Shown here: in pieces, positions 8,441 to 16,804 of the stretch
How positions within the stretch are numbered: position 1 is the stretch's first letter
Layout of the letters: every line of letters begins with the position of its first letter
DNA from: a virus
DNA: 41,874 nt
IMG/VR virus record: IMGVR_UViG_3300049478_000027
Location: 1-41,874 of that record
Reading direction: 5' to 3' (one strand)
The notes under the pieces: model-generated
Told to the model about the DNA's origin: nothing
Database searches by the model: none
What the model saw: the letters and a program-made list of their open reading frames with translations, nothing else
Position numbers and translations under genes: made by a program

Positions 8441-8533
8441 ATGGTGTTTAAAATTCTTTTCGGGATCTCGATCGTGCTCAACATCGTGCTCATGCTCCTC
8501 GTCGGCTTCTACGCTGGCCGGGACTCCGAGCGG
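8333..8533 (+). repeat. Diverged repeat, copy 2 (partner at 6396-6490)
   Basis: Contains the two blocks shared with 6396-6490. Here the second block lies inside the gene at 8441 and the first lies in non-coding DNA, implying a duplication followed by deletion or insertion in one copy. Confidence 0.6.
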
Positions 8534-8605
8534 GACAAAAGGGAGACGGAGAAATGGCCGGAATCAACTCTCCGTGATGCGAAAGAAGTATTCAAGGGGA
8601 AATAA
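8441..8605 (+). CDS. Single-span membrane protein with GFYAGRDSER segment, 54 aa
   Basis: An N-terminal hydrophobic span (residues about 4-25, ILFGISIVLNIVLMLLVGF) is followed by AGRDSERDKRETE and a charged tail. Strong TAGGAGG upstream. The stop overlaps the next start (TAATG). It shares the GFYAGRDSER segment with the protein at 6389. It begins a run of four small genes, three of them membrane proteins, so a role at the host envelope is plausible. Function unknown. Confidence 0.65.
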   Translation: MVFKILFGISIVLNIVLMLLVGFYAGRDSERDKRETEKWPESTLRDAKEVFKGK

Positions 8606-8904
8606 TGAACAAAAACAGAGATTTCTTTTGGTACGCGATCACGCTTCTCTTCGCCTTCGCCCTGGGGATTCTCGCTGGCGGTATCGTCGGAGTGAGCGTC
8701 GGCACTCACAACGTCCGCTCCTTCGAGGTGGCGCCACTCCAAGCCCAGCTCGAGATCGTGTTTGATAGGCTCGCGGAATCTTCGCCGCTTTTTGTCGAGA
8801 TCTGCGATAAACTTGATGCTATCATCCAAGCCGTAGAGCGCGAGGCTGGCCATCATGTCGAGGCCGTCCGCGTGCGCATCGGAGGAAAGGAGGCGCGGAA
8901 ATGA
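8605..8904 (+). CDS. Membrane-anchored helical protein, 99 aa
   Basis: One N-terminal membrane span (about 11-33: ITLLFAFALGILAGGIVGV) followed by a long helical soluble part (about 45-99) with basic end. The form, a short inside end, one span and a helical outer domain, resembles inner-membrane spanins and other phage envelope proteins, but no family match is visible. Coupled to both neighbours by overlaps (TAATG and ATGA). Confidence 0.65.
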   Translation: MNKNRDFFWYAITLLFAFALGILAGGIVGVSVGTHNVRSFEVAPLQAQLEIVFDRLAESSPLFVEICDKLDAIIQAVEREAGHHVEAVRVRIGGKEARK

Positions 8905-9029
8905 ATACTTTTCTCATCTGGGCCGGAGTCTGGATTCTCCTCTCGAGTGCCTTTGTTCTCCTTTTGATTATTCTCATGGCGCTTGACAAGAGGAGGAGGA
9001 ACAATGATTATTCAAAATGGAGTTCGTGA
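8901..9029 (+). CDS. Small membrane protein, 42 aa
   Basis: ATG overlaps the previous stop. A single hydrophobic span (about 4-27, with WILLSSAFVLLLIILMAL) followed by DKRRRNN, which keeps the C-terminus inside. Not recognised. Too short for database-style family calls. Confidence 0.5.
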   Translation: MNTFLIWAGVWILLSSAFVLLLIILMALDKRRRNNDYSKWSS

Positions 9030-9072
9030 TCTCCTCGATCGCGATGCCCCAGAGGATGCCGAGTCAATTTAG
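9004..9072 (+). CDS. Possible 22-aa peptide
   Basis: ATG at 9004 directly behind GAGGAGGAGG, nested in another frame of the preceding gene's end, running past it to a TAG at 9070. The Shine-Dalgarno is very strong, but the peptide is tiny, acidic and featureless. It could be a leader or simply chance. Confidence 0.3.
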   Translation: MIIQNGVRDLLDRDAPEDAESI

Positions 9073-9087
9073 CGTTTAGGAGGCAAA

Positions 9088-9504
9088 ATGAAAACTTGGA
9101 TGAAGATCGTCCTCGGGATTCTTCTCGTGGTGGCCATAGGTGTGGTCGGTTATTTTATAGGCCAGACGCCGCCGGCCATCGTCAAAACGACGACGGTGAC
9201 GCTCGACGTGCGACCTTCGCCGACTTTCACGCTGGCCGTGACCCCGGCCACTATCATCACTTATCCGAACCGCACCGTAGCGTTCGATGCGCTCTGCACG
9301 GGAGTCAATAATTTTGCCGGCGTGGTCACGCTGACGATATCGGATCTCCCAGCGGGCGCGACGGCACAATTCCTTCCTTCGGCCACATTCACGCTTGGAA
9401 CAGAGCCACTGGGGGCACAGATTAACATTACATTGCCTGATAATCAGGCGCTTGTAGGACTCCACACGCTCACGATTACCGCCACCTCTACGAGCTATAA
9501 TTGA
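9088..9504 (+). CDS. Membrane-anchored Ig-like domain protein, 138 aa
   Basis: An N-terminal membrane span or uncleaved signal (about 5-25: MKIVLGILLVVAIGVVGYF) is followed by one beta-sandwich (about 45-138) of the bacterial Ig-like type: FTLAVTPATI, then VVTLTISDLPAGATAQF, and HTLTITATS at the end. This G-x-V-T-L-x-x-x-x-L-P-A-G-A motif is typical of extracellular bacterial repeat proteins. Phage Ig-like domains usually decorate virions, but the membrane anchor and early position suggest a host-surface protein, perhaps in superinfection exclusion (inference). Confidence 0.65.
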   Translation: MKTWMKIVLGILLVVAIGVVGYFIGQTPPAIVKTTTVTLDVRPSPTFTLAVTPATIITYPNRTVAFDALCTGVNNFAGVVTLTISDLPAGATAQFLPSATFTLGTEPLGAQINITLPDNQALVGLHTLTITATSTSYN

Positions 9505-9527
9505 GTCGGTAGCTCAAGGAGTGGTGG

Positions 9528-9546
9528 AAATTTATCTTTTAGGAGG
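9528..9546 (+). promoter_or_regulatory. Second copy of AAATTTATCT leader motif
   Basis: AAATTTATCT (9528-9537), three bases, AGGAGG (9541-9546), then TTCTCT and the ATG at 9553. Nearly the same as the leader at 942-960. A weaker relative (AAATTTCTAAC then AGGAG) precedes the gene at 20278. Confidence 0.4.
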
Positions 9547-9552
9547 TTCTCT

Positions 9553-9831
9553 ATGGAAATCGTTGCTCTGGCGGCCTCGGCCGCGGTGATCATTCAGTTT
9601 ATCAAAACGAAGATCCTCGTGGCGATCTGGGACAAACTCGGCGGAGCGGTTAAGTTCGGGATCTCGGTGCTCGTTTGCGCGGGCGTCGTGGTCTATAAGG
9701 CTATCGCTCTCAGCGTCTCATTTAATCTCAACCTCATCTGGATCCTCGTTGAGGTGGTGATCGCCGTGACGGGCGCCTACAAACTGGCCTCTGCTTTCTG
9801 GCCCGGACTCAAAGCACCCGTTTCCAAATGA
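9553..9831 (+). CDS. Holin-like membrane protein, 92 aa
   Basis: Three hydrophobic segments (about 3-17, 32-52 and 60-83) with short polar turns; the last turn carries Lys and Pro. Size and topology fit class I holins, but holins share little sequence and the lysis enzyme lies 1.6 kb downstream, so another small membrane role is possible. Strong TAGGAGG start with the AAATTTATCT leader. Confidence 0.45.
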   Translation: MEIVALAASAAVIIQFIKTKILVAIWDKLGGAVKFGISVLVCAGVVVYKAIALSVSFNLNLIWILVEVVIAVTGAYKLASAFWPGLKAPVSK

Positions 9832-9846
9832 TTGGATGAGGTTCTT

Positions 9847-9985
9847 CGCGGAGGCGGATCTGGCTCCCGCGCTCGAGGCTCGCCCCGGCTAACGTCCGCG
9901 TGGCGCGCTCGCTCACCATCGGGGGGCGATGGTGACTTCGAGTACTTGAATTCTCTTCCAAGGCTAGGCGCCAACCGCCTCCGCG
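9847..9985 (+). ncRNA. Candidate structured RNA in a 169-base gene-free gap
   Basis: In the gap 9832-10000, CGCGGAGGCGG (9847-9857) is perfectly complementary to CCGCCTCCGCG (9975-9985), an 11-bp closing stem. Just inside, TGGC (9861-9864) can pair with GCCA (9970-9973), separated by only 3 and 1 unpaired bases. Further in are CGCGC/GCGCG (9868-9872 with 9903-9907) and a hairpin TCACCATCG-GGGG-like loop-CGATGGTGA (9913-9935, 9-bp stem, 5-base loop). Nested helices of this kind suggest a folded RNA or a leader element for the nuclease gene starting at 10001. No promoter or U-tract is obvious. Strand assumed from neighbours. Confidence 0.5.
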
Positions 9986-10000
9986 GCCTCTCTTGAGAAA

Positions 10001-10561
10001 ATGAAACCATCATCAAACGAAGCACGCTCAGAATGGTATTCTTTCGGCGAGAAGAAGGAAATCGAATTTGTGAACATAATCCAACCTTGGGCTGGCCTCT
10101 CAGCGTGGCGATTTTCTATAAATCCTCGGAAGCGTTACGTCAAGTGGGCGCTTGATATTGTTGACAAACTCGGCCATGAGTACGATTTAAAATATCAGAA
10201 TCGGCCCTTCTTTAAGGCTGGAGTTCTCTTCGGAATTCATCCACAATTCGCCTTTGCCTTCAATGAGAAGGATTATATCAGATATCAAGAAGAGGCTCCG
10301 AATTGCCGGATTATCGCATGGCTCGAATGGCCAGCGTCTGTCTTGGAAGATTCGCTCGAATTCGGCCAAGAATTAATTTACCCGATGCGAGGAGTCTGGA
10401 TCCTCGAGTTTAAGGAGATTGCTTTCTCTATCAAATCGGGCGGCGCGCCGAGGCATGAGTATAAAAATCGGATAAATGATAAGATAGGAAACGCGAAATC
10501 GAGTTTCATTCTTGATCTGAGGACGCTCGCTTGGGTGAAAAAAGAAATACGATTTCTATAG
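10001..10561 (+). CDS. PD-(D/E)XK-like phage nuclease, 186 aa
   Basis: A core (about 18-80) reads EKKEIEF...WALDIVDKLGHEYDLKYQNRPFFKAG: an E20, D52, then D62-x-K64 with Q66. This E...D...DxK pattern, followed by the N-x-P-F-F and GIHPQFAFAFNEKDYIRY segment, is what I recall from a phage nuclease-like family near replication genes. The remainder is beta-rich. The start has a poor Shine-Dalgarno and lies 16 bases after the structured-RNA stem, so translation may be controlled by that element. The gene is more AT-rich than its neighbours. Nuclease activity is inferred from spacing of acidic residues only. Confidence 0.5.
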   Translation: MKPSSNEARSEWYSFGEKKEIEFVNIIQPWAGLSAWRFSINPRKRYVKWALDIVDKLGHEYDLKYQNRPFFKAGVLFGIHPQFAFAFNEKDYIRYQEEAPNCRIIAWLEWPASVLEDSLEFGQELIYPMRGVWILEFKEIAFSIKSGGAPRHEYKNRINDKIGNAKSSFILDLRTLAWVKKEIRFL

Positions 10562-10570
10562 GAGGCTGAT

Positions 10571-10927
10571 ATGCCACTCGTTATCGTTCTCTCCTCTCCG
10601 GCGATGGAGATCTACGCGAAGGACTCCACGCTCGGGCTCAAGAAGGAAGGATGCTCTCCAGGCGCGGCGAGGCGAGCAATCGCGCGGGCGCTCAGGCGAG
10701 GTGATCGTTTCATCGTCGGTGAGAGCCACTACGGTGGGCCTCTTGCGATCGCTCGCGATCGTATCGCGTTTGTCGAGTACGTGACGGAGCAGAAACTCCG
10801 CGAGACGATCGAGAAGAGGAAGGCTAAGGAGGCTGCACTCTCAGGATCGGCCGGAGGCCCGACGAGGCCGCCTGGGCCTAATCTCACCATCGCGCGCGGC
10901 CTCGTCAGAGGGATCAAGCCGGCTTGA
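10571..10927 (+). CDS. Hypothetical basic protein, 118 aa
   Basis: Good start (ATAGGAGG). A small domain (about 1-75) with GAARRAIARALRRGDRF, then a charged helix and a Gly/Pro-rich tail. Not recognised. The stop overlaps the TTG start of the methyltransferase remnant (TTGA). Confidence 0.6.
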   Translation: MPLVIVLSSPAMEIYAKDSTLGLKKEGCSPGAARRAIARALRRGDRFIVGESHYGGPLAIARDRIAFVEYVTEQKLRETIEKRKAKEAALSGSAGGPTRPPGPNLTIARGLVRGIKPA

Positions 10928-11448
10928 ATCGAATCATCTGTGGTGATGCCTTGACGGAACTCCGAAAGTTGCCGGATGAGTCCGTCAATTGTTGCGTCAC
11001 CTCCCCGCCGGAGTTGCCGGAGAGGTGCATCAAGGCGGGGACGAGCGAGAAGGGAGTCTGCCCAAAGTGCGGAAGTCCGTGGGTGAGAATCGTAGAAAGG
11101 CCGAATATGGTAAGGGTTGAGGGAAGTAAATTAGATAGGTTTGGAAATGGCACTGTCGGAGTTCACAGAAAGGTCGGCCAAAAGTATCAGGATTGGAGAG
11201 AAAATAATCCAGATAAGACGGTTGGTTGGAAGCAAAATTGTGAGTGCCAAACATCTTCGCCCATTCCCGCCATTGTCCTCGACCCCTTCTTTGGCGCTGG
11301 GACAGTCGGGGTAGTCGCCAAGGAGTTGGGGCGGGATTTCATTGGGATAGAGCTGAATCCGCTCTACGTGGCGACGGCAGAGGCCCGCGTCCGGGCCACG
11401 GGCTATCAGATGCCGATCGACGAGGCACTTGACAAACGCGCGGAATAG
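10924..11448 (+). CDS. DNA methyltransferase (N4/N6 type) with large internal deletion, 174 aa
   Basis: TTG start overlapping the previous stop as TTGA. It begins exactly like phage site-specific DNA methyltransferases (CGDALTELRKLPDESVNCCVTSPP) and ends like them (LDPFFGAGTVGVVAKELG, then DFIGIELNPLY). The catalytic motif should read SPPY followed by about 150 residues of fold. Here SPP is joined directly to ELPERCIKAGTSEKG, a segment that normally follows a second F-P-P near the C-terminal third and contains CPKCG. So an in-frame deletion between two Pro-Pro codon pairs looks likely. The tyrosine of SPPY is gone; the product is probably inactive as an enzyme, though SAM-binding and DNA-specificity parts remain. 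Confidence 0.7.
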   Translation: MNRIICGDALTELRKLPDESVNCCVTSPPELPERCIKAGTSEKGVCPKCGSPWVRIVERPNMVRVEGSKLDRFGNGTVGVHRKVGQKYQDWRENNPDKTVGWKQNCECQTSSPIPAIVLDPFFGAGTVGVVAKELGRDFIGIELNPLYVATAEARVRATGYQMPIDEALDKRAE

Positions 11449-12317: not shown

Positions 12318-12650
12318 TTGATTCAAGAGCTCTCCAGCGGAGGTATTAAAATTGTAGAAATATCGGTCGGACTAGGTGCAGCGGCGATCATCATCGATAA
12401 AGTGCTCTCGTGGACGCTGAAATGGAAACAGAAGGAGAACGGAACGGGCCTCGCAAAGGCCGCCTTCGAGCGCCCTGAGTTCGTCAAACACGATCTCAAA
12501 GTGGATAAACTCTGTGAGGCTGTCACGAAACTCTGCAATAGCGATGTGATTAAAAGTCAGATCCTCTCCGATATCCTCTCCTCGAGCAAACGACAAGAGG
12601 AGATCCTCGGAGGGATAAGGGAGGATTTCAGAAACGGAGGCCAACGCTGA
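12318..12650 (+). CDS. Membrane protein in lysis region, 110 aa
   Basis: The best start is the TTG at 12318, seven bases after AAGGAG and just behind the previous stop. An N-terminal membrane segment (about 10-32, ISVGLGAAAIIIDKVLSWTL) is followed by a long helical, charged region with two cysteines. The layout resembles an inner-membrane spanin or a small holin. Its stop (TGA 12648-12650) overlaps the presumed CTG start of the next gene. Confidence 0.5.
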   Translation: MIQELSSGGIKIVEISVGLGAAAIIIDKVLSWTLKWKQKENGTGLAKAAFERPEFVKHDLKVDKLCEAVTKLCNSDVIKSQILSDILSSSKRQEEILGGIREDFRNGGQR

Positions 12651-15178
12651 GAGAGCCCGAGTTCCTCAAGGTTCCTTTCGGTGCGCTCCGGCCGTGGGAT
12701 AAAAACCCGCGCCTCGCGACGAAGGAGGACGTGGCGACGCTGGCTCGGCATATTTCCCGCGCCGGATTTATCCGCAACTTCGTGGTCTGGAGAGAAGACG
12801 GCGACGAGGAGGCTGGGCGCTTCACGATCGGCGGCGGGAATGTGCGTTATACCGCTTGCCGCGACGTGCTCCACGTGCCCTCGGATCGGGAGGTCTGGGT
12901 CGCCCTTTGTTTCCCTGAGAGCGAGGCCGAGAAGATCGAAATCTCGCTGCTCGATAACGTGCGCTCCGGCCGCTATGTCGATCAGGATCTCGCGGAGCTC
13001 GTGGCGCCCTACGCCGCGGAGATCGAGCTCTCGGACTACGGCGTGGATATTGCCGATCCCGTGAGGCTCTCCGATATCATGCAGTTCTTCGGCCCCGGCG
13101 GCGCCGATCCCTCCGCGATGGAGGTCGAGCCGATTAATCTGAGCGAAAAGTTCATCATGCCTCCTTTCTCCGTTCTCGACGCACGCCGCGGCTTCTGGCT
13201 CGAGCGGAAACGCCGCTGGATGGCGCTTGGGATCCGCTCGGAGCTCGGGAGAGGCGGAAATCTCCTCAATTTCTCGGATACGGTTCGTAGCGTGATGGCG
13301 AAAAAAGGCGCTATGTTTGAAGGAAATCAGGCGTTATTGTATCGAGAGAATATCCGAGGCAACAAAGAACCTCTTTTCATTAGATCCTCCCGCACAGTGC
13401 TCGCGTCTCAAGGCCGGAAAATGAAAGGAATCCTCGGGACAAGTCCTTCGGGAATGGTGCCCAATTATTACGCCCAGAAACGCGCTAAGGAGAAAGAGCT
13501 CGGGCGCCGTCTCTCTCCGGCCGAGTTCGAAACGAAATATCTTCGATTGCCAGAAAACGTCTCCTCGCTCTCTGGATCCGGCACATCCGTTTTCGATCCC
13601 GTTCTCTGCGAGCTCGTCTATCGGTGGTTCGCGCCCTCCTCCGGCTCCGTCCTCGATCCCTTCGCTGGCGGCTCCGTGCGCGGCCTCATCGCGGCGTTTT
13701 TGGGCTACCGATACACGGGGATCGAGCTCCGCGCCGAGCAGGTGGAGGCGAATCGAGTTCAGGCGTCAACCGTTCTATCGCGCCATGAGGCGCCACACGA
13801 GGCCGGCGTCGAAGGCGGGGACTTGGAGCCGACGCTCACGCCAATCGAGCGTGTCGGAGAGATGTGGCTCAAACGTGAGGATTCGTTCCGCTATGCCGGA
13901 GTCTGTGGCGGAAAGACGCGCGCGGCGCTCGCTCTGATCCGCTCTCGCGAGGCTGAGGCGCGCCGCGGGATCGTCACGGCCGGCTCTCGCTCTTCGCCGC
14001 AAGTGGCGACGGTGGCGGCGATCGGCCACCGCCTCGGCTTCCCAGTCCGCGCCCACGTTCCCTCTGGTCGCCTCTCGCTGGATCTCGAGCGAGCAAGAGA
14101 GGAGGGAGCAGAGATCGTGCAGCATCGCGCTGGACGCAACACTCTGATCAAGGCGCGCGCTCGCGAGGACGCGCTCAAGCATCAGCTCCTCGAGATCCCT
14201 TTCGGTATGGAGTGCGAGGAGGCCGTGGAGCTCACGGCCGCTCAAACGACGAATCTCCCATCTGAGGCAAAACGACTCGTCGTTCCCATCGGGTCAGGGC
14301 TCTCTCTCGCCGGCGTCCTCCGCGGCCTAGAGAGAGATAAAAATGAGATCTCCGTCGTCGGCGTCCGCGTCGGCGCCGATCCTCAAAGGATCCTAGATCG
14401 TTGGGCGCCAAAAGGATGGCGGAAACGCGTGAGAATCATCTCGGCTGGCGTTCCGTATGATGAGCACGTTGAGGCCGAGATCGGCGGGATCAGGCTCGAT
14501 CCCGTCTATGAAGCCAAATGCATGCGGTTTCTCCGCCCAGGAGATTGCCTCTGGATTGTAGGAATCCGTCGCTCCGCGCTAGAGGCTCCTCGAGCTCTGA
14601 GATTCCATCCTGAGCCGCGCTGGATCGTCGGTGACGCCTACGATGCGCCAGCGCTCGTTTCTGGGCCATTCGATCTCCTTTTCTCATGCCCGCCCTATTT
14701 CAACCTCGAGCACTACTCGGATCTCCCGGGGGAGCTCTCGGCGATTGCCTCCTACGAGGCCTTTCTGGTGCGATACGCTGAGATCATCGCACGCGCCGCC
14801 TCGCTCCTCTCCCCCGATCGTTTCGCCGTGTTCGTTGTCTCGGACGTCCGCGATCGCGCCTCGGGTTTCTATCACAATCTTGTGGCCGACACGATCTCTG
14901 CCTTTGAGCGCGCTGGCCTCCGCCTATATAACCACGCGATCCTCGTCCAGCCCGTCGGATCGCTCCCAATCCGCGTGATTAAGTGGTTCGAGAACAGTCG
15001 CAAACTTGGCAAGACTCATCAAAACGTATTGATCTTTTTCAAGGGCGATCCAGTCAAAATTCGGAAAATCTACGGCTCCGTCGAGATCACCCTCCCAGAC
15101 GAGGAGCCCGTGGATCTGGAGAAAGCACTTGGAGAGAGCGTTGAGTCAGAACCGCTCCCAGAGGCGTTAGATGAGTAA
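12647..15178 (+). CDS. ParB domain / DNA methyltransferase with inserted PLP-enzyme domain, 843 aa
   Basis: Three modules. Residues 5-110: a ParB-like domain starting FLKVPFGALRPWDKNPR. Residues about 320-365: methyltransferase motif I, LDPFAGGSVRG (D337), then GYRYTGIELRAEQVEAN. Residues about 395-645: an inserted fold-type-II PLP enzyme domain like tryptophan synthase beta or ACC deaminase, with TPIERVGEMWLKRED, the Schiff-base lysine K423 in GGKTRAA, and the phosphate loop PIGSGLSLAG (G549-G551). Residues 655-843: the rest of the methyltransferase with catalytic SCPPY (680-684) and KLGKTHQNVL. Conserved ParB residues start before any ATG/GTG/TTG; the only fitting initiator is CTG at 12647 behind GGAGG, overlapping the prior stop as CTGA. 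A GTG at 12731 would remove 28 conserved residues. Confidence 0.8.
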   Translation: MREPEFLKVPFGALRPWDKNPRLATKEDVATLARHISRAGFIRNFVVWREDGDEEAGRFTIGGGNVRYTACRDVLHVPSDREVWVALCFPESEAEKIEISLLDNVRSGRYVDQDLAELVAPYAAEIELSDYGVDIADPVRLSDIMQFFGPGGADPSAMEVEPINLSEKFIMPPFSVLDARRGFWLERKRRWMALGIRSELGRGGNLLNFSDTVRSVMAKKGAMFEGNQALLYRENIRGNKEPLFIRSSRTVLASQGRKMKGILGTSPSGMVPNYYAQKRAKEKELGRRLSPAEFETKYLRLPENVSSLSGSGTSVFDPVLCELVYRWFAPSSGSVLDPFAGGSVRGLIAAFLGYRYTGIELRAEQVEANRVQASTVLSRHEAPHEAGVEGGDLEPTLTPIERVGEMWLKREDSFRYAGVCGGKTRAALALIRSREAEARRGIVTAGSRSSPQVATVAAIGHRLGFPVRAHVPSGRLSLDLERAREEGAEIVQHRAGRNTLIKARAREDALKHQLLEIPFGMECEEAVELTAAQTTNLPSEAKRLVVPIGSGLSLAGVLRGLERDKNEISVVGVRVGADPQRILDRWAPKGWRKRVRIISAGVPYDEHVEAEIGGIRLDPVYEAKCMRFLRPGDCLWIVGIRRSALEAPRALRFHPEPRWIVGDAYDAPALVSGPFDLLFSCPPYFNLEHYSDLPGELSAIASYEAFLVRYAEIIARAASLLSPDRFAVFVVSDVRDRASGFYHNLVADTISAFERAGLRLYNHAILVQPVGSLPIRVIKWFENSRKLGKTHQNVLIFFKGDPVKIRKIYGSVEITLPDEEPVDLEKALGESVESEPLPEALDE

Positions 15179-15584
15179 ATCTCATGCTCGACCTGCTCCG
15201 AAAGGGAATCTTTATGCCTCGAAATATAAACCTGAATACGTACGCCAAGCCGAACGATTCGCTCAAGTGGGCCTCTCTCAAGGCGATATGGCCGCCCTCT
15301 GGGGCGTGGATCCAGATACGGTGACGAATTGGAAACAGACGTTCCCCGAGTTCTCGGAGGCGCTAAAAAGAGGCCAATCTGGGAGGAATCTATCGCTCTT
15401 ATCAGCGATGTATCACTCGGCGATCACGAAGAGGATGCCAGCGCTCATGATCTTTCTAGCTAAAAATTGGCTGGGGATGCGCGACGTCCAAGATATCGGG
15501 CTCGAGGGCTCGGCGCCTCTGAGGATCTCGATAGTTCCGGCCAAACCGAACGGCCGGCCAGAGGGAGCGAAGGAGAAGAAGTGA
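15171..15584 (+). CDS. terS: Terminase small subunit, 137 aa
   Basis: A DNA-binding helix-turn-helix (about 28-60: QVGLSQGDMAALWGVDPDTV then NWKQTFPEFSEAL) followed by helical oligomerisation region (about 65-110). This is the standard form of phage small terminase subunits, and the large subunit follows with a GTGA overlap. It would recognise the packaging site. It overlaps the methyltransferase fusion by eight bases, linking early and late regions with no gap. Confidence 0.8.
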   Translation: MSKSHARPAPKGNLYASKYKPEYVRQAERFAQVGLSQGDMAALWGVDPDTVTNWKQTFPEFSEALKRGQSGRNLSLLSAMYHSAITKRMPALMIFLAKNWLGMRDVQDIGLEGSAPLRISIVPAKPNGRPEGAKEKK

Positions 15585-16804
15585 GGTTGGAAGAGCGGAC
15601 GGAGGAATGGCCGGCAACACGCATTTTCTACGAGAATGCAGCGGCCAAGAAACCTCTCATCGTGAACATCGGCGGCGCCCGCTCCTCGAAGAGCTATTCG
15701 ATCGTGCAGCTCTTTATCACGAAGTTCTTTACGGAACGGAAAAAAACTTTCCTCACGACGCGGAAGACGCTACCGGCGCTTCGGCTCACGGCCTACAAAG
15801 TGGCCGTCGATCTCCTCCGCGAACGCGGACTCCTCAAATATCTCGACCATAACCGTTCAGAGAGAACGCTGAGAAATCCCTTTAACGGGAATTTCTGGGT
15901 CTTTCACTCGATCGACGATCCCGAGAAGATCAAATCGACGGAGTTTAATTATATCCACATGGAGGAGGCCAACGAGTTCTCCTATGATGATTTCATGATC
16001 CTCCGGCTCCGCCTCTCCGGCCCTCTGAGCTCGGGAGAGCGGAATCATCTCTATCTCTCGCTCAATCCCTCGGAGGAGCACGGGTGGATCCGGCTGAGAC
16101 TCCTTGAGAGTCCCGAGGCCGAGGTGATCCGATCGACGTATCTCGATAATCCCTTCCTGTCGGCCGAGTACGTACGCCAGATCGAGGCGCTCCGCGATCA
16201 GGACGAGAGCTATTGGAAGATTTACGGACTAGGGGAGTTCGCTCCCGTCCGTGAGCTAATCTTCGGTTCCCCGGAGATCGTTATCGAGATTCCAGAGAAG
16301 GGAGAGATCATCTACGGCCTCGATTTTGGTTATAATAATCCCTCCGTGCTGCTCGAGATCACGGTCGATGAGTGGTCGTTCTGGATGCGTGAGATCGTCC
16401 ATCGGAGCGGGCTCACGAACGGAGATCTCATCGGCCTTATGAATGAGGCGATCTCGCCTTTTGAGAAAAAGAGGCGCCCGGTCTATGCGGATCCCTCGGA
16501 GCCGGATCGGATCGAGGAGATCGCACGCGATGGATTTCTCGTCTACGGCGCCTCGAATGAGGTGCGGGCGGGGATCGTATTCCTTAAGCGCTTTCGGCGC
16601 TACTCGTTGGCCGAGAATGTGGCTACAAACCGTGAGTTCTCAAGTTATAAATGGCGGGTGGATCGGCTCGGCAACGTCACGGACGAACCGTTAAAATTCG
16701 ATGATCACGCGCCTTGTGCGGCTCGCTATGCGATTTATACGCATCTGGAGAGCCAGAGAGGTGAAGGGTATTTCTTTGCGCGCTCGAAGCACGATGTTTA
16801 CTGA
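15581..16804 (+). CDS. terL: Terminase large subunit, 407 aa
   Basis: GTG start at 15581 overlaps the small subunit stop; the longer frame upstream lies inside that gene. ATPase: Walker A-type GGARSSKSYSI (residues 31-41, K37), Walker B IHMEEAN (E128, E129), and coupling motif SLNP (160-163). Nuclease: D248 in YGLDFGYNNPS, D304 in VYADPSEPDRI, and D374/D375 in KFDDHAPCA. Order and length fit the PBSX/Terminase_3-like large subunits. It cuts and pumps DNA into the prohead through the portal encoded next. Confidence 0.9.
   Translation: MRLEERTEEWPATRIFYENAAAKKPLIVNIGGARSSKSYSIVQLFITKFFTERKKTFLTTRKTLPALRLTAYKVAVDLLRERGLLKYLDHNRSERTLRNPFNGNFWVFHSIDDPEKIKSTEFNYIHMEEANEFSYDDFMILRLRLSGPLSSGERNHLYLSLNPSEEHGWIRLRLLESPEAEVIRSTYLDNPFLSAEYVRQIEALRDQDESYWKIYGLGEFAPVRELIFGSPEIVIEIPEKGEIIYGLDFGYNNPSVLLEITVDEWSFWMREIVHRSGLTNGDLIGLMNEAISPFEKKRRPVYADPSEPDRIEEIARDGFLVYGASNEVRAGIVFLKRFRRYSLAENVATNREFSSYKWRVDRLGNVTDEPLKFDDHAPCAARYAIYTHLESQRGEGYFFARSKHDVY

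Follow-up and report, generated by a model that had tools for sequence, protein, structure and literature searches.

In thymidine hypermodification, a pyridoxal phosphate (PLP) enzyme modifies an amino-acid group carried by the base. The hypermodification of DNA in M6-like phages involves a PLP enzyme (PMC9476957), and in the CmoA/CmoX/CmoY system for 5-carboxymethylcytosine, often found near ParBc proteins, a DNA methyltransferase fold installs a handle that a second enzyme elaborates (PMC12783734). Here we describe a gene, located at positions 12647 to 15178 on the plus strand of the IMG/VR virus record IMGVR_UViG_3300049478_000027 (positions 1 to 41,874, analyzed at full length and called the window below), that joins a ParB-like domain, a permuted DNA amino-methyltransferase (MTase) and a PLP module in a single predicted polypeptide of 843 residues. 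Based on sequence and model comparisons, there is about an even chance that this fusion would be a tethered two-step DNA-hypermodification enzyme whose PLP side acts on an amino-acid moiety linked to DNA. The recurrence of the pair in many related phage genes points to a so far undescribed DNA decoration of the amino-acid type in phages.

As in thymidine hypermodification of the M6/ViI type, which employs a 5-hydroxymethyluracil (5-hmU) kinase, aGPT-PPlase, a radical S-adenosylmethionine (SAM) enzyme and a PLP enzyme, the window fusion would place a PLP enzyme in phage DNA decoration; there, however, the enzymes are separate proteins and no MTase core is involved. No hydroxymethylase, kinase or aGPT-PPlase was found among the 21 window proteins scanned (the record may be incomplete), and nothing ties the thymine (5-hmU/aGPT-PPlase) pathway, invoked in a preliminary description of this DNA, to the window; only one distant PLP relative lies in an operon of that kind. 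It is found in Glutamicibacter phage Montesquieu (L186:7018-8954), where a gene annotated as 1-aminocyclopropane-1-carboxylate (ACC) deaminase overlaps the aGPT-PPlase gene. The window fusion and the CmoA/CmoX/CmoY system would have in common a repurposed MTase, an elaborating enzyme and a link to ParB. Yet that system uses a C5-cytosine MTase, carboxy-SAM and an amide ligase, whereas the window gene shows an amino-MTase fold, a CPPY motif and a PLP module in the same chain, and no match to a C5-MTase or CmoA was obtained among the window proteins scanned. The phage ParB-MTases (phrog_498 and phrog_12517; Listeria phage B054 gp77 and Enterococcus phage phiFL3A gp36) show the same ParB domain, permuted halves, DPFAGGSVRG and SCPPY as the fusion, but they have no PLP module and a linker of only 10-23 residues in its place. 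An earlier description of a joined ParB-MTase and PLP module was not found in the open-licence literature, which is weak evidence of novelty.

The open frame at 12647-15178 runs for 843 codons without a stop. No ATG, GTG or TTG in this frame would include the N-terminal ParB strand, so the likely start is the CTG at 12647, which overlaps the stop of the upstream gene and is placed 6 nucleotides after a Shine-Dalgarno-like GGAGG (12636-12640). The ParB-like domain (residues 1 to about 150, 12647-13096) was matched at residues 5-125 by PHROGs 723, 8071 and 620 (E 3.5e-10) and shows strands and helices at residues 5-148 of the model; Pfam ParB_N gave no match. It is followed by the first MTase half (residues 164-379, 13136-13783), which includes a conserved PPFS.LD..G.W segment, motif I DPFAGGSVRG (residues 337-346, 13655-13684) and motif II IELRAEQVEAN (13721-13753). 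One linker (residues 380-397, 13784-13837) leads into the PLP module (residues 398-646, 13838-14584, subtype A) and another (residues 647-655, 14585-14611) out of it, to the second MTase half (residues 656-815, 14612-15091) with motif III GDA (14630-14638), motif IV SCPPY (residues 680-684, 14684-14698) and the conserved residues E688, Y690, R735 and H791. Phage MTase families in PHROGs matched both flanks of the insert, and Pfam matches above cut-off were obtained for N6_N4_Mtase (PF01555, residues 676-803, 31.6 vs 26.7 bits) and PALP (PF00291, residues 405-576, E 1.5e-13, 51.2 vs 35 bits).

Based on the concordance of Pfam, PDB profiles, AlphaFold and Foldseek, residues ~398-646 are assigned to a complete fold-type-II PLP module, in agreement with the preliminary description, which had placed a whole module of about 250 residues between motif I and SCPPY. 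When a profile of 30 relatives was compared with PDB, the closest sequences of solved structure were those of an ACC deaminase homologue and of D-cysteine desulfhydrase. The AlphaFold model of the module had pLDDT values of 93-98, and its top Foldseek match was the D-cysteine desulfhydrase 4d8t (E 9.9e-12, TM 0.65 by target). The module and these two enzymes have in common the fold, the Schiff-base lysine (K423, 13913-13915, which aligns with their lysine region) and the phosphate loop (GSGLSLAG, residues 549-556, 14291-14314, placed by profile alignment and conservation), and a Tyr-Glu pair is found as in ACC deaminase. In contrast, the module is shorter (about 250 vs 320-340 residues), its carboxylate loop is changed and it is tied to DNA enzymes; the corresponding NCBIfam cut-offs were missed by far (20 vs 289 bits for TIGR01275 and 13 vs 392 bits for TIGR01274). 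The same PLP-type fold was seen, by a Foldseek viral match between models, in an uncharacterized protein of 241 residues from Serratia phage vB_Sru_IME250 (A0A1J0MFX9).

The catalytic residues of the module are conserved. K423 was present in 91 of 91 readable relatives and G549 of the GSG loop in 93 of 93, both at the positions first proposed for them. Across about 93 modules of two subtypes R410, D412, Tyr621 (93/93) and Lys624 were invariant, and residue 622 was acidic without exception (93/93), with Glu in all 57 members of subtype A and either Asp or Glu in subtype B. The equivalent Tyr of the Salmonella enzyme takes the C-alpha proton, and the position after this Tyr is a Glu bonded to the pyridine N1 in ACC deaminases and a Thr in desulfhydrases (PMC3344862). 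Since the module has a Tyr followed by an acidic residue as in the ACC deaminases, Tyr621 and Glu622 (14507-14512) are predicted to be the C-alpha base and the pyridine-N1 partner, and the module should form a strong electron sink of the ACC deaminase type. The PLP part has a ratio of nonsynonymous to synonymous rates (dN/dS) as low as the MTase has, with values of about 0.03-0.18 in most pairs and 0.37 in one, some synonymous rates being near saturation; both parts are under purifying selection. A role as non-catalytic scaffold or as cofactor sensor, retained so that the MTase can fold or dimerize, would suit an insertion in a surface loop and MTases that elsewhere work without the module. 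But such a role is very unlikely, given that the lysine, the phosphate loop, the Tyr and the acidic N1 partner are invariant in two divergent subtypes and that the module is also found as a free gene. The SNH/SNQ loop for the carboxylate of free substrates is replaced by SPQ in subtype A and by GGA in subtype B, so an ordinary amino acid in free form is an improbable PLP substrate.

Concerning the MTase, both halves match beta-class N4/N6 amino-MTases (TTHA0409, 2zie; M.PvuII; CcrM) and have the PPY loop in common with them, but the halves appear in swapped order, which indicates that the core is a circular permutant of this class. The catalytic motif also differs, with a Cys instead of D/N/S: motif IV was CPPY in 312 of 315 readable members and not the usual [DNS]PP[YFW]. 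The preliminary description had called SCPPY intact, which holds for the conservation of the motif but passes over its unusual form. In the model the PLP module enters between motifs II and III, after helix B (363-379) and before the motif III strand (658-661), that is, in the loop where the old ends of the MTase chain would meet. In the insert-free members the linker from N369 to the W659 strand measured 10-23 residues in all but two of the 81 readable cases, as expected from the short link that had been taken as normal for phage ParB-MTases. By Rossmann topology, the loop between helix B and strand 3 would face away from the SAM/base pocket, which makes two separately working active sites more likely than one. 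Joint modification of DNA by one polypeptide, as had been proposed at the outset, is still the best reading on comparative evidence, although probably with two sites instead of one and with a putative new base. An intein with a LAGLIDADG homing domain (PF14890, PF14528) was found in the MTase of locus L129 (ORF 8503-11403, residues ~459-825), placed exactly before the catalytic Cys of CPPY, which is the +1 residue of the intein. An intein-like or self-excising nature of the PLP module was rejected, although this real intein occurs elsewhere.

The insertion is not unique to the window. The same fusion, with the same point of insertion between helix B and the motif III strand, was found in the isolated Pseudanabaena phage Pam4 and Erythrobacter phages R6L and ZS04 and in more than 40 viral contigs, and the MTase-PLP pair recurs as end fusions and as adjacent genes, among them the overlapping neighbors of Microcystis phage Mae-JY30 and mycobacteriophages Vincenzo and AlanGrant. 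Among the first 183 loci to be classified, a set that includes duplicates and is enriched by the choice of query, there were 43 inserted modules, 55 separate genes and 9 other or truncated fusions, including 5 C-terminal and 1 N-terminal. When 120 viral contigs were picked only by MTase motif DNA, 33 had a PLP module, 30 of them as a separate gene and 3 as the insertion; the insertion is a minority arrangement and the pair mostly consists of two adjacent genes. The separate PLP domain starts -27 to +60 nucleotides from the end of the MTase in 39 of 46 same-order cases. In a quick tree of 149 MTase rows, in which absence of PLP was judged on partial contigs, at least nine changes of PLP presence (gains or losses), and at least six for the type-A insertion, were placed on strongly supported branches. 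Among 50,697 phage records about ten had a relative of the module, most of them adjoining an MTase of the ParB-MTase family. The rarity of the insertion in the family (3/120) is what a chance fusion or an assembly error devoid of joint function would predict, but this is extremely unlikely in view of the many independent pairings and of the junction found again in isolated phages and contigs; an assembly artefact was ruled out by the same order in more than 40 contigs and three isolated phages together with a dN/dS that is no higher in the PLP part than in the MTase.

The PLP module is one of several partner enzymes of the ParB-MTase family. A 2-oxoglutarate hydroxylase of the PF05118 type, a relative of proline and aspartate hydroxylases whose nearest solved relative is L-proline cis-4-hydroxylase, was present in 7 of the 120 sampled contigs and was enriched with PLP (5 of 7, Fisher p 0.017). 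Its gene lies between the MTase and PLP genes, overlapping, at loci L217, L223 and L282, and also at L143, L144 and L161, and it is fused to the MTase at L220. A third cassette is a Cys-rich domain (CxxxCC ... DKPxxCxxYPL) with only a faint match to DUF3109. This domain occupies the same linker as PLP at L154 (residues 225-420), follows PLP at L011, L126 and L128, stands between the MTase and a C-terminal PLP module at L018, L020 and L138 and at the MTase C-terminus at L077, and is a separate gene at L135:6872-7714 and L017. Two PLP modules (L169:4857-5744 and L025:8362-9282) carry a tail of about 300 residues that gave no Pfam match and no PDB relative, the label amidoligase-like for these tails being a tentative reading of motifs by eye. 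Croceibacter phage P2559S (gp66-gp67, L181:5359-7000) and its relatives L188-L190 have an AdoMet decarboxylase gene that overlaps the one for the MTase. The motif I residue R345 is Arg throughout the family except in this AdoMet decarboxylase-linked clade, where a single evolutionary event made it Phe, a change consistent with removal of the SAM carboxylate by the decarboxylase. AdoMet decarboxylase was rejected as a general partner, as it turned up, apart from the close relatives L188-L190, in only 1 of the 43 whole records that were searched. Judging from these assignments, most partner enzymes would act on alpha-amino acids or carboxylates.

PP-loop ATPases are also among the partners and bring in the notion that the PLP module frees sulfur or ammonia for a PP-loop ATPase to put on DNA by thiolation or amidation, similar to DndA/DndC or MnmA. 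A PP-loop gene adjoins the MTase-PLP pair at L174 and in Staphylococcus phage Alsa_1 and the MTase alone at L171 and L211, a gene resembling PAPS reductase is found a few genes away from the R6L and ZS04 fusions, and D-cysteine desulfhydrase is the nearest fold of the module, all in line with such a transfer. It is nevertheless improbable, because adjacent PP-loop genes are rare (1 of the 120 sampled contigs), none was found near the window gene, and Glu622 is as in ACC deaminase instead of the desulfhydrase Thr. The Twort-like phage Alsa_1 (L198:3834-6594) has a permuted MTase without ParB (TSPPY), the PP-loop relative and the PLP relative close together.

In the two-step hypermodification that we favor, the ParB domain would bring the fusion protein to DNA and the permuted MTase core with its CPPY motif would put a SAM-derived group on a flipped-out base, most likely on an exocyclic amino group, judging from fold and motifs. 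Next, the PLP module tethered to the core would form an aldimine with an alpha-amino acid, which could be the group newly placed on the base or one still to be attached, and Tyr621 would remove the C-alpha proton into the electron sink backed by Glu622 in the manner of ACC deaminase. The PLP carbanion could end in elimination, deamination, isomerization or addition, and the MTase and PLP sites would act in turn on the same DNA, not as one pocket. DNA as the substrate of the PLP side, as well as the product, is what we infer from this arrangement. Because the catalytic residues are the same in PLP-linked and PLP-free MTases, an altered MTase active site was ruled out as the effect of PLP, and the core step is probably shared across the family, with PLP adding a step to it. 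PLP needs a primary amine, so the core would install an amine-bearing group or PLP would activate an amino acid that is then added to the base. The simplest such group would be the aminocarboxypropyl arm of SAM. We tentatively suggest, as a somewhat unlikely extension, that the whole ParB-MTase family moves the 3-amino-3-carboxypropyl arm of SAM, and not the methyl, to the base, and that exchangeable modules edit the resulting amino-acid nucleotide. PLP would then edit the amine or the alpha-carbon, the hydroxylase the beta-carbon and the PP-loop or amidoligase-like domains the carboxylate, while AdoMet decarboxylase would work on SAM beforehand; the pointer to this arm is R345, invariant save for the Phe mentioned above. 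The general logic of such DNA decoration exists in the PLP use of M6-like phages (PMC9476957) and in the carboxymethylcytosine system (PMC12783734).

Several observations weigh against hypermodification. No PLP gene was nearby in 87 of the 120 loci picked by MTase motif, and none was found in whole records such as those of Listeria phage B054, phiFL3A and HCTV-2. The closest folds of a model of the MTase alone were the ordinary N-methyltransferases TrmN, Trm14 and aTrm11. The core may only methylate, since its catalytic residues are unchanged by PLP, and a methyl group gives PLP no amine; with the SNQ/SNH carboxylate loop replaced, the PLP substrate cannot be read off either. The unchanged MTase residues, the majority of the family without PLP and the free-amino-acid enzymes as closest PLP folds would all be accommodated if the core only methylated and the PLP module acted on a small amino acid in free form, such as D-cysteine, D-serine or a toxic analogue, in a co-expressed metabolic or counter-defence role. 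However, the recurrence of fusions at three positions in this MTase, gene overlap, hydroxylase genes sitting between MTase and PLP and the lost SNH/SNQ loop make such a free substrate doubtful, though a real alternative.

If two-step hypermodification is true, phages would own a DNA decoration system of interchangeable modules around a single permuted MTase core, in which PLP chemistry takes place on a chain tethered to a DNA-modifying enzyme and not in a stand-alone enzyme. A new class of amino-acid-type bases would be added to the few known, with new tools against restriction enzymes. Isolated phages that carry the pair exist (Pam4, R6L, ZS04, Mae-JY30, Vincenzo and AlanGrant).

The MTase gene adjoins the terminase genes in the window and in many relatives. 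In the window, the terminase small subunit gene (15171-15584, plus strand, phrog_309) has an 8-nucleotide overlap with the fusion gene, and the large subunit gene lies at 15467-16804 on the same strand (phrog_3717 and phrog_2). A second N6/N4 MTase gene at 10924-11448 of the window has only 174 codons; its middle is apparently deleted, as TSPP is followed immediately by a C-terminal Cys-rich part and motif I.

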